Positions 2,168 through 5,451 of a DNA stretch of 5,543 nucleotides are shown here, in pieces. Under the pieces are notes generated by a model that saw nothing but the letters and a program-made list of their open reading frames with translations, did no database searches and was not told the origin of the DNA. Made by a program: the position numbers and the translations under genes. This DNA comes from an uncultured Chloroflexota bacterium. GTDB taxonomy: Bacteria; Chloroflexota; Anaerolineae; Anaerolineales; Anaerolineaceae. Where the stretch lies: NCBI GenBank assembly GCA_902795255.1, contig CADBKS010000195.1:1-5543 (forward strand), read 5' to 3'. Numbering within the stretch: the first letter of the stretch is position 1; every line of letters starts with the position of its first letter.

Positions 2168-2199
2168 TTACCTGTTTTTAGATTATTTTGTAATATAAT
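2168..2199 (+). promoter_or_regulatory. Promoter of the mgtA leader transcript
   Basis: A perfect TATAAT (2194-2199) sits in a markedly AT-rich stretch of otherwise GC-rich DNA. The -35 is poor: TTACCT (2168-2173) lies 17 bases before an overlapping alternative -10, TAATAT (2191-2196), or 20 bases before TATAAT. Initiation near 2203-2207 would give a leader RNA of about 200 nt ending at the terminator at 2405. A weak -35 is compatible with an activated promoter, but no activator site is evident. Confidence 0.5.
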
Positions 2200-2222
2200 A
2201 AATTTATCAATGTTTTTTTACG

Positions 2223-2244
2223 GCGCATCGTTTTATGATGCCGC
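2223..2244 (+). other. Hairpin at the 5' end of the mgtA leader
   Basis: G2223-C2229 pairs with G2237-C2244 through seven base pairs, with C2242 bulged and a seven-base loop (2230-2236). It is not followed by a T run, so it is not a terminator. It lies just ahead of the GGGGA ribosome binding site of the leader ORF. It may stabilise the 5' end of the transcript or be part of a sensor. Confidence 0.4.
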
Positions 2245-2270
2245 GGCTTATATATGGGGAACAGAACATC

Positions 2271-2348
2271 ATGGAGTGCTTTCTAAGTTCACAACTGAAT
2301 ATTAAGATGGCTGCCTGCGGTGAGCTGTATCTCCCGCCGGCCGATTGA
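2271..2348 (+). CDS. Leader peptide of mgtA, 25 residues, ending Pro-Pro-Ala-Asp
   Basis: ATG at 2271 opens a 25-codon frame ending at TGA 2346-2348. GGGGA (2256-2260) is a plausible ribosome binding site, though its 10-base spacing is a little long. The peptide begins MECFLSSQLN and ends CGELYLPPAD. It is followed 25 bases later by an intrinsic terminator, and its codons 12-15 contain the complement of the terminator's 5' arm. That arrangement is characteristic of an attenuation leader. Consecutive prolines near the end are slow to translate. In enterobacteria, proline- or acid-rich leaders such as MgtL sense Mg2+ or proline and control mgtA in this way. The peptide here is not similar to MgtL, so the parallel is functional inference. 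It is too small to be a metabolic protein, and I do not know a named family for it. Confidence 0.5.
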   Translation: MECFLSSQLNIKMAACGELYLPPAD

Positions 2349-2380
2349 ATACGGCCTGTTTGATCGTTTTAACAGCCATC
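2306..2380 (+). promoter_or_regulatory. Antiterminator fold overlapping the leader ORF
   Basis: GATGGCTG (2306-2313) is perfectly complementary to CAGCCATC (2373-2380). The second segment includes the first six bases of the terminator's 5' arm, so the two structures are mutually exclusive. The closed stem would enclose hairpin A (2317-2337) and hairpin B (2339-2356), giving a three-way junction. The 5' segment lies in codons 12-15 of the leader ORF, so a ribosome there would block the antiterminator. This shows how translation could switch mgtA, but the direction of control is inferred. Confidence 0.5.
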
Positions 2381-2405
2381 GCAGTGTTTTGCGGCGGCTT
2401 TTTTT
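2374..2405 (+). terminator. Intrinsic terminator between the leader ORF and mgtA
   Basis: A2374 to A2383 pairs with T2390 to T2399 around the loop 2384-2389. There is one A-C mismatch (2378/2395) and one G-T wobble (2379/2394). Seven T residues (2399-2405) follow directly. It ends about 227 bases before the mgtA start, so it can control mgtA only by premature termination. No gene other than the 25-codon leader lies between it and the promoter at 2194-2199. Confidence 0.72.
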
Positions 2406-2427
2406 ATTATAAAGGAAGGAGTTATGT

Positions 2428-2523
2428 ATGGACAGCGAACAATACGGCAGTGCTGAATCCGATGATTCTTATCACGGTAGACGGTCCGAAATCTGTGTGT
2501 TTACGGTGTCCGTACACAGCTGA
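2428..2523 (+). CDS. Small acidic ORF, possible second leader peptide
   Basis: ATG at 2428 opens 31 codons to TGA 2521-2523. The sequence AGGAAGGAG (2413-2421) ends six bases before it, making it one of the best ribosome binding sites in the window. A second ATG at 2424 in another frame gives only 10 codons and is too close to that site. The peptide begins MDSEQYGSAESDDSYHG, with five acidic residues in the first 13, and has no membrane segment. It lies after the terminator and before mgtA, so it would be translated only from read-through transcripts. Acid-rich N-termini are known to destabilise translating ribosomes when Mg2+ is low, which would suit a second control point. It could equally be a chance ORF or the remnant of a decayed gene. 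Confidence 0.35.
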   Translation: MDSEQYGSAESDDSYHGRRSEICVFTVSVHS

Positions 2524-2572
2524 ACTTCCGGCCGGGCACTGTCCTTCTTATTGATTCAGGTCTGTTTCAGAT

Positions 2573-2589
2573 CCGGGATGCTTTCCCGG
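2573..2589 (+). other. Hairpin just upstream of the mgtA ribosome binding site
   Basis: CCGGGA (2573-2578) pairs perfectly with TCCCGG (2584-2589) around TGCTT. It ends 27 bases before the mgtA ribosome binding site, and no T run follows. It does not directly hide that site. It could shape the 5' end of the mgtA message or be incidental. Confidence 0.3.
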
Positions 2590-2616
2590 CACCGGAGCCG
2601 GACCATGTTTGAAAAC

Positions 2617-2624
2617 AGAGGAGG
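2617..2624 (+). promoter_or_regulatory. Ribosome binding site deciding the mgtA start
   Basis: AGAGGAGG lies seven bases before ATG 2632, which is near-ideal spacing. The frame stays open further upstream (TTG 2551, ATG 2605), but those starts lack a comparable site, so 2632 is chosen. Confidence 0.85.
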
Positions 2625-2631
2625 TACAGAA

Positions 2632-5343
2632 ATGATCTTCAATATCAATCTCAATAAAAAACAGAAAACCAAAGAAGAACTGGACCGCGAGCGCAATGCG
2701 AAGATGATAAAAAAACTCGCACGCTACGCATCCTACGATACCGCGACACTTTATGCGGTTTTTTTCTCATCCGACCGCGGCCTTGACAGCGAGGGTGTCG
2801 AAGACTCTGAAGACGAATACGGGAAGAATCATGTTGACCGCGGCAAAAAGGTCTCGGTCTTCAAGCGGATCTGGGATTCTTTCATCAATCCGTTCACCCT
2901 GGTGCTGATCGGACTGGCGGCTGTTTCCGCCTTTACTGACATTATTTTTGCCGCGGACGGTGAAAAGAATTTTACGACCGTGATCATCATCATGGCCATG
3001 GTGATCATCAGCGGTGTGCTGCGTTTCGTGCAGGAAACACGCAGCGGTGACGCGGCGGAAAAGCTGCTGGATATGATCACGAACACAGCCTGCGTGGAAC
3101 GGGTCGAAACCGGCAAGCAGGAGATCCCGATCGATGAGATCGTCTGCGGTGATATCCTCTGGCTGAGCGCCGGGGATATGGTCCCGGCCGATGTCCGGAT
3201 CCTGGAGGCCAAAGACCTTTTCATCAGTCAGTCCTCGCTGACCGGAGAAAGCGAGCCGGTCGAAAAGTTCCCGATCTGTGAGAACAACAAGGTACCGGTC
3301 ACGGATCTCCCGAACGTGGCTTTCATGGGATCGACCGTGATCTCCGGAAGTGCGCGCGCGATCGTGATCGGGGTTGGGAACAATACGATGCTTGGCAGCC
3401 TCGCGAAAGAGCTGGACGCGAAACCGGTCGAGACCTCATTCGATAAGGGTGTTAATGCGGTCTCCTGGATCCTGATCCGATTCATGCTGGTCATGGTCCC
3501 GATCGTTCTTTTCGTCAACGGGTTTACCAAAGGCGACTGGATGAAGGCCGTGCTGTTCGCGCTTTCCGTGGCTGTCGGTCTGACACCGGAAATGCTGCCG
3601 ATGATCGTTACAACGGCACTTGCCCGCGGTTCTGTTGCGATGAGCGAAAAGAAAGTGATCATCAAAAACCTGAACGCCATTCAGAATCTCGGCTCAATGG
3701 ATATCCTCTGTACAGATAAGACCGGAACGCTGACCCAGGACCGGGTCGTTCTGGAAGTCCACCTGGACCTGCGGGGAAATGAGGACGCGCGGGTGCTGCG
3801 TCACGCCTTTCTGAACAGCTATTTCCAGACCGGGCTGAAGAACCTGATCGATGTCGCCATTATTGAAAAACAGGATGAATTCGGTTCTCAGGATATCCGG
3901 GAAAACTACGAAAAGGTCGATGAGATCCCGTTTGATTTTGAACGCCGGCGCATGAGCGTTGTTGTCGCCGATAAAAAAGGCAAGGCGCAGCTGATCACCA
4001 AGGGTGCTGTGGAGGAAATGCTGAAATGCTGCAGCTGGGCAGACCTTGACGGCAAGGTCGTCCCGCTGACGCAGGACGTGATCGATTTTGTGCAGGAACG
4101 TTCCGATGAACTGAACGCCAAGGGGCTGCGCGTGATCGCCCTGGCTCAGAAGACTAACCCTGCGCCGGTCGGGAAATTCTCCGTAGCCGATGAGTCGGAT
4201 ATGGTGCTGCTCGGTTTTCTCGGCTTCCTGGATCCGCCGAAGGAAACGACAGCCGAAGCGCTCAGGGCCCTGCATGACCATAATATCACCGTGAAGATCC
4301 TGACGGGTGATAATGAAAAAGTGGCCGTCAGCATCTGCCGCCAGGTTGGGCTGAATGTCGAAAGAACACTGCTCGGGTCCGATGTGGACGCGATGGATGA
4401 CGCTGAACTGCTGAAAGCGGCAGAGGAGATCACCGTTTTTGCCAAGCTTTCCCCCGCGCAGAAAGCGCGCGTGATCACAGTTCTTCGGGAAGCAGGCCAT
4501 ACGGTCGGGTATATGGGTGACGGCATCAACGATGCCCCGGCCATGACGAAGTCCGATGTCGGGATCTCGGTGGATACCGCTGTGGATATCGCCAAGGAGG
4601 CCGCGGCTGTTGTTTTGCTGGAAAAGGATCTGAATGTGATCTGCGACGGCGTGATCGAAGGCCGGAAGACTTATGCCAACATGATCAAATATATCAAGCT
4701 GACCGCATCATCGAACTTCGGGAACATGTTCTCTGTTCTGGCGGCCAGTGCCTTCCTGCCGTTTCTGCCGATGGCTTCCCTGCAGCTGCTGCTGCTGAAC
4801 CTGATCTACGATATCTCCTGTACGGCGATCCCGTGGGATAACGTGGATGATGATTATCTGAAGCAGCCGAGAAACTGGGATGCGTCCTCCATCAGCCGCT
4901 TTATGATCTGGATGGGCCCGACCAGCTCGGTGTTCGATATCCTGACCTATGTGATCATGTATTTCATCATCTGTCCGCTCTTTACCGACGGGACGCTTTT
5001 CCCGCAGCTCGGAGCGCCCGCGCTCCGGGAGCTTTACGAATCCGTATTCCAGACCGGATGGTTCATTGAAACGATCTGGAGCCAGACACTCGTCATTCAT
5101 CTGATCCGGACAGAAAAGATCCCGTTTATTCAGAGCCGGGCGGCAAAGTCGGTAACGCTGATCAGCACCCTCGGAATGCTGGCGGCCACATATATCCCGT
5201 TCTCGCCGCTTTCCCGTGCCTTCGGGATGACACCGCTGCCGGGGATCTATTTCGCTTATCTTGCGGGGATCCTTATCGGATATATGGCCCTGGTGCTGGG
5301 CGTCAAGGCCCTTTACATCCGGAAATATCACGAACTGCTGTAA
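2632..5343 (+). CDS. mgtA: Magnesium-importing P-type ATPase MgtA (P-IIIB)
   Basis: This is a 903-residue inner-membrane pump that uses ATP to import Mg2+, close in length to E. coli MgtA (about 898). After a charged N-terminal cytosolic region come helices 1-2 (about 84-133). The actuator domain carries TGES at 204-207. Helices 3-4 (about 278-325) include the family hallmark [11 protein letters not shown] at 315-325. The P-domain has the phosphorylated aspartate, Asp362, in DKTGTLT. The N-domain has [12 protein letters not shown] from 434 and KGA at 457-459, followed by TGD at 558-560 and GDGIND at 629-634. Six C-terminal helices complete the ten-helix core. [10 protein letters not shown] (691-700) with Asn695 and NLIYD with Asp727 carry the conserved polar residues of the ion site. 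Long stretches, such as [10 protein letters not shown] and [16 protein letters not shown], match enterobacterial MgtA as remembered. No catalytic residue is missing. Expression is probably governed by the upstream attenuator. The gene is alone between that leader and a strong terminator. Mg2+ is the expected substrate; Ca2+ pumps lack the TPEMLPMI signature. Confidence 0.97.
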
Positions 5344-5408: not shown

Positions 5409-5451
5409 AGCCGGTACACCTGCATCATATACAGGTGTACCGGCTTTTTTT
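5409..5451 (+). terminator. Intrinsic terminator of mgtA
   Basis: A perfect 14 bp stem (5409-5422 with 5432-5445) encloses a nine-base loop, and a run of seven T residues (5445-5451) follows. It lies 66 bases after the mgtA stop. A smaller hairpin, TCCGC/GCGGA (5368-5372 and 5378-5382), precedes it and has no T run. This is a textbook terminator marking the end of the mgtA transcript. Confidence 0.93.

Follow-up and report, generated by a model that had tools for sequence, protein, structure and literature searches.

What governs expression of the magnesium importer gene mgtA in an uncultured Chloroflexota bacterium is the question raised by a stretch of 5,543 nucleotides (nt) of its DNA (contig CADBKS010000195.1), called the window here. 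A sequence-only reading had proposed that mgtA is controlled by a transcription attenuator of unrecognised type at 2194-2405, composed of a TATAAT box, a 25-codon open reading frame (ORF), antiterminator arms and a strong terminator, and had seen no MgtL-like peptide. Our analysis leaned towards a two-part answer, in which mgtA would be under two serial leader switches, a riboswitch-like attenuator and then an acidic upstream ORF (uORF) of the mgtL/mgtQ type. The uORF, which by its sequence appears to link the window to a type of uORF seen before mgtA in many bacteria, was the firmer finding of the two. The gene and the uORF were located as follows.

2416..2421, plus strand: Shine-Dalgarno sequence AAGGAG serving the acidic uORF, ending 6 nt 5' of the ATG (ORF/Shine-Dalgarno scan)
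2428..2523, plus strand: acidic uORF of 31 codons, MDSEQYGSAESDDSYHGRRSEICVFTVSVHS, putatively mgtL/mgtQ-like (ORF/Shine-Dalgarno scan)
2632..5343, plus strand: mgtA, Mg2+-importing P-type ATPase of 903 aa (profile matches to TIGR01524, 1138 bits with a cut-off of 611, and NF011702, 1153 bits with a cut-off of 975)

The uORF, which begins MDSEQYGSAESDDS, sits behind a good Shine-Dalgarno sequence between the terminator and mgtA. It was overlooked in the sequence-only reading, whose statement that no MgtL-like peptide was present did not hold up, the acidic ORF lying downstream of the terminator. Under a strict rule for small ORFs (Shine-Dalgarno match of at least 6, spacing of 4-10, ATG or GTG start, 8-60 aa), a scan of the whole window on both strands revealed only this uORF and an overlapping 10-codon ORF at 2424. 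The Shine-Dalgarno-led small ORF stands directly 5' of a Mg2+ P-type ATPase gene, and its residues 1-13 include five acidic ones but neither Lys nor Arg. Two of the acids fall within the first five codons, at D2 and E4 (MDSE), and an acid at both codons 2 and 4 was found in only 3 of 105 control small ORFs. Nine of the uORF peptides were compared with Pfam and ten with NCBIfam, and none matched a model.

A survey of mgtA loci, gathered by protein searches of genomes, revealed that such uORFs are enriched before this gene. The 117 mgtA starts were reduced to 106 by removing identical upstream sequences, to 105 by asking for at least 250 nt upstream, and finally to 93 nonredundant leaders including the window. 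These leaders contained 44 strict-rule small ORFs, 29 of them (window included) encoding an acid, Asp or Glu, at codon 2, compared with 8/105 small ORFs and 26/215 gene starts elsewhere in the same loci (29/44 versus 8/105, Fisher p 4.8e-13, a test that takes no account of shared ancestry). When the window is set aside, a strict-rule acidic uORF was present in 28 of the 92 leaders. Grouped by MgtA identity to the window protein, the carriers were 8/14 (at least 60%), 11/25 (55-60%), 5/14 (50-55%), 3/24 (45-50%) and 1/15 (40-45%), and the 34 MgtA proteins from uORF-bearing loci, again with the window, formed 22 clusters at 70% identity. The strict spacing of 4-10 would miss E. coli mgtL, whose spacing is 3; a looser scan detected mgtL, and a relaxed inspection of the leaders showed further acidic-start ORFs in L032, L094 and L097. 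The uORF starts shared the consensus M-D-[S/P]-[E/G/D]-S-S, as in MEPESSNG (L093, the closest relative with leader DNA, MgtA 65% identical), MDPESSKG (L059), MDAGSSNN (L003, C. difficile), MDTGSSTD (L099) and MDSDSSPQRHR (L035), and from residue 13 on no such bias was seen. The start MNDSDGS of L120, a genome sampled from the phylum to which a Treponema metagenome-assembled genome (MAG) belongs, carried its acid at codon 3. Ser codons of the AGY and of the TCN family both occur in these starts, a sign of selection on the beginning of the peptide.

If the ORF at 2428 were a chance ORF, the attenuator at 2206-2405 would be self-sufficient. This explanation gains from the antiterminator duplex, which beats 498 of 500 shuffles, and we consider it unlikely: Shine-Dalgarno-led small ORFs with an acid at codon 2 occurred about 0.003 times per 400 nt elsewhere in the same loci (a control that is largely coding DNA) against 28 of 92 leaders, and the hairpin at the uORF start stood out from shuffles. 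Unfolding uORF codons 1-3 was calculated to cost 14.8 kcal/mol, versus 4.7 kcal/mol in shuffles (z 5.07, 0/60 shuffles). Over the whole survey the start-hairpin test covered 31 of the 34 leaders, and a test of sequestration of the mgtA Shine-Dalgarno covered 28 of the 34.

Ribosome destabilisation on acidic leader ORFs as a means of sensing Mg2+ is described for the enterobacterial mgtL and mgtQ. Four features between the uORF and mgtA bear on a comparable mechanism in the window.

2420..2521, plus strand: stem 1:2, uORF start 2420-2437 with uORF end 2504-2521 (fold prediction)
2503..2542, plus strand: alternative stem 2:3, 2503-2512 with 2533-2542, predicted duplex of -16.6 kcal/mol, which excludes 1:2 and 3:4
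2539..2629, plus strand: stem 3:4, anti-Shine-Dalgarno 2539-2549 with the mgtA Shine-Dalgarno region 2618-2629 (fold prediction)
2619..2625, plus strand: mgtA Shine-Dalgarno sequence AGGAGGT (Shine-Dalgarno scan)

The sequence elements were observed directly, acidic uORFs proved enriched in mgtA leaders, and the helices were predicted; beyond this, we infer that the uORF is translated, that ribosomes are destabilised on it, and that switching depends on Mg2+ and runs in the following direction. The attenuator at about 2206-2405 would act first, its mutually exclusive hairpin, antiterminator and terminator deciding whether RNA polymerase passes 2405. The acidic uORF would then govern translation of mgtA. 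When ribosomes traverse the uORF, stem 1:2 would re-form behind them and stem 3:4 would hide the mgtA Shine-Dalgarno (off). In low Mg2+, ribosomes would hesitate on, or drop off from, the acidic codons D2 and E4 near the uORF start; a ribosome held there would keep region 1 from stem 1:2, region 2 would pair with region 3, and the mgtA Shine-Dalgarno would be released (on). Stem 2:3 was predicted to enter the minimum free energy (MFE) fold when a ribosome was modelled on codon 4 or 8 of the uORF.

The resemblance to mgtQ, the uORF of Salmonella mgtB, extends to several features. According to PMC8092293, mgtQ has 8 codons with D2 and E5 and frees the mgtB ribosome-binding site; its conservation is named there in Erwinia, Yersinia and Serratia, together with an mgtQ-like ORF in Brucella. 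Both ORFs have a strong Shine-Dalgarno, early acids (D2 and E4 in the window) and a Mg2+ P-type ATPase gene downstream, and the mgtQ-style arrangement of stems 1:2 and 3:4 (the latter over the Shine-Dalgarno of the pump) versus 2:3 was predicted in the window. In the same source mgtQ lies between mgtC and mgtB and was tested experimentally, whereas the window uORF, known from sequence alone, has 31 codons, a leader position and a transcription attenuator in front. E. coli K-12 mgtL encodes 17 aa and starts 194 nt before mgtA in the K-12 sequence. Like the window uORF it lies about 200 nt before mgtA with acids at codons 2 and 4 (MEPD compared with MDSE). Unlike the window uORF, which contains no Pro and is followed by a predicted helix over the mgtA Shine-Dalgarno, it has four Pro; PMC11282234 reports that in low Mg2+ ribosomes drop off at its EPDP motif and Rho-dependent termination is relieved. 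We place the window uORF by analogy with mgtQ and mgtL as one that may work like them, with no claim of common descent.

Several results weigh against this account. The switch between 1:2 plus 3:4 and 2:3 was also attained by 32 of 400 shuffles and is unremarkable by itself, and sequestration of the mgtA Shine-Dalgarno by stem 3:4, taken for the window alone, was not significant (z 1.14, 5/40 shuffles as strong). With a modelled ribosome at codon 4 or 8, the energy needed to open this Shine-Dalgarno fell only slightly, from 6.0 to 5.1-5.2 kcal/mol, and placing the ribosome on codon 25 (5.0 kcal/mol) or on the stop (5.25 kcal/mol) lowered it just as much. Across the 28 leaders the ribosome-position modelling showed no common direction: blocking the uORF start raised mean Shine-Dalgarno sequestration (+0.7 and +2.35 kcal/mol), the opposite of the direction proposed, and sequestration was no better than in shuffles in 10 of the 28. 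The helices of both elements were predicted from the window sequence alone. The strict rule picked out a uORF in only 28 of the 92 relatives, and one of these (L111) has its uORF inside an M-box, probably a chance ORF. In the window uORF itself the consensus S5 and S6 are replaced by Q and Y. Past the N-terminus most codon changes were non-synonymous: a codon-change test on 11 close pairs (a twelfth was missing, and some had a member in common) counted 72 changed codons in whole uORFs, 53 non-synonymous and 19 synonymous, and gave no sign of selection on the whole peptide, so that the rest of the uORF is apparently constrained by RNA structure, if it is constrained. No similarity in leader DNA was found between the window and its relatives (best blastn E 0.097), so the kinship of the uORFs rests on place, Shine-Dalgarno and acidic start. 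A search for the leader DNA in 21 genomes gave no match and was uninformative, as no positive was available.

The upstream part of the leader contained the following features.

2194..2199, plus strand: TATAAT, possible -10 element (seen directly)
2256..2334, plus strand: hairpin 2256-2284/2305-2334, candidate sensor or anti-antiterminator (predicted MFE fold of 2206-2405)
2271..2348, plus strand: 25-codon ORF MECFLSSQLNIKMAACGELYLPPAD, ATG at 2271, stop ending at 2348 (ORF scan)
2315..2384, plus strand: antiterminator, 2315-2328 with 2372-2384, 13 pairs, around an inner hairpin 2336-2343/2352-2359 (fold and shuffles)
2374..2405, plus strand: intrinsic terminator, hairpin and T tract (fold and terminator scan)

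The core of the proposed attenuator was borne out. The antiterminator duplex reached -21.7 kcal/mol compared with -13.2 +/- 2.1 kcal/mol when the upstream stretch was shuffled (2/500 as good), and the terminator hairpin 2374-2384/2389-2399 (-13.8 kcal/mol) is followed by CTTTTTTTATT. In the predicted folds the antiterminator excludes both the terminator and the hairpin 2256-2284/2305-2334. The mgtA start at 2632 lies 227 nt past 2405, close to the roughly 230 bases given by the sequence-only reading. The other two components stood only in part. The TATAAT box is present, but the promoter scan found no plus-strand promoter there, and by eye the -35 site does not resemble TTGACA. The 25-codon ORF is likewise present, but a Shine-Dalgarno is missing in front of it and of its longer in-frame versions, and it is therefore unlikely to be a leader peptide unless translated in another way. 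The entire 2206-2410 fold was only mildly above shuffles (z -1.68, 13/200 as good). An Rfam search, which the sequence-only reading had recommended, placed no family at the gathering threshold in the window; over 2120-2700 at E up to 10 it gave 8 rows, none credible, the best scoring 14.9 bits where the threshold is 42. GcvB, Spot 42 and other weak matches (9-15 bits) were dismissed as far below threshold. With arms that beat chance, the modelled element at 2206-2405 is a reasonable candidate for a new attenuator.

An M-box scan of relatives covered 36 uORF-bearing loci, namely all 33 strict relatives except L052 (32 loci) and L048, L066, L074 and L094, which are outside the strict nonredundant set. 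The M-box (ykoK) riboswitch, RF00380, was detected in 25 of them (16/20 and 9/16 in two batches) and lay 63-305 nt 5' of the uORF on the same strand in 22; in L061 and L066 it lay about 0.8 kb before the uORF, with an open frame of more than 100 codons between. A terminator-like hairpin was found within 260 nt before the uORF in 24 of 33. Relative to mgtA, L093 has its M-box at -473 to -315, a terminator hairpin at -230 to -191 with a T run, and its uORF at -164 to -65; the window has its terminator hairpin at -259 to -233 with a T run and its uORF at -204 to -108, with the attenuator in the place of the M-box. Judged by this layout, 2206-2405 occupies the position that the M-box holds in many relatives, upstream of the uORF and mgtA. 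A diverged M-box at 2206-2405, which the 22 relatives with an M-box in that place would favour, was rejected as very improbable: as the sequence-only reading had noted, the M-box signature is missing, with no match to the RF00380 covariance model in the window and RF00380 absent from the rows for 2120-2700 even at E up to 10, whereas the M-boxes of relatives score 87-160 bits, and the element of about 200 nt is shorter than the L093 M-box plus platform.

The terminator might instead merely end the transcript of the upstream gene at 1487-2122, with mgtA read from its own promoter downstream and the acidic uORF as sole regulator. The terminator starts 252 nt past the stop codon of that gene, the TATAAT at 2194 has no -35 partner, and 11 of the 36 scanned uORF-bearing relatives have no M-box in the available stretch. 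We hold this explanation to be rather doubtful, because a significant antiterminator overlaps the terminator, relatives often show a terminator and then a uORF behind an M-box, and the sole plus-strand promoter-like match between the terminator and mgtA (2609-2636) overlaps the mgtA start.

In many Bacillota the M-box and the acidic uORF follow one another ahead of mgtA (22 loci, for example L072, L093 and L099, and also L003 from C. difficile), so that a single gene apparently carries two control elements related to Mg2+. A comparable arrangement is that of Mycobacterium tuberculosis rv1805A (PMC12810186), a conserved uORF preceded by a Mg2+ riboswitch; there the downstream gene is pe20 rather than mgtA and the peptide, with a conserved Pro, is called mycobacteria-specific. 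Among the papers listed in searches of the open literature, which mostly did not reach subscription journals, none dealt with acidic uORFs ahead of mgtA in either Bacillota or Chloroflexota. If these uORFs work alike, ribosome-based Mg2+ sensing would be widespread and often in series with a Mg2+ riboswitch, so that one gene would read Mg2+ twice, at transcription and at translation. Since the putative first sensor of the window is not an M-box, its ligand becomes a direct question. More tentatively, the window may hold a new class of RNA attenuator that has replaced the M-box before mgtA. It would be followed by an acidic leader ORF of ancient origin (M-D/E-x-D/E/G-S-S), a type through which the ribosome would sense Mg2+ far outside Enterobacteria and which would work in tandem with the M-box in many Bacillota. 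In L047 and L048 a terminator-like GC hairpin and T run (by eye in L048) lie between the acidic uORF and mgtA; the uORF there may therefore control transcription and not translation.

Besides an identical entry, the nearest proteins to the window MgtA were 14 at 79-83% identity, the two with a named source both being from Anaerolineaceae bacterium MAGs. No MgtA was found in viral contigs with the single protein or an alignment of 15 MgtA (the window and 14 relatives) as queries. Two neighbouring genes for MgtA-type ATPases, about 60% and 41-46% identical to that of the window, were present in G001, G267, G275, G319, G346, G439, G448, G450, G474 and G723. An inverted repeat and then a T run (by eye) at 5410-5451, 3' of mgtA, is likely the mgtA terminator. 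The gene at 1487-2122 encodes a membrane protein with sub-threshold matches to the MAGa3780 and Pr6Pr families and 195 database matches at E <= 1e-10, its closest source-named relatives being proteins of Clostridia (58%) and Eubacterium (54%) MAGs, which point to another lineage than the MgtA relatives do. The minus-strand ORF at 215-1189 (324 aa) had no NCBIfam match and no more than 13 matches in the database (E <= 1e-5), none of them source-named.
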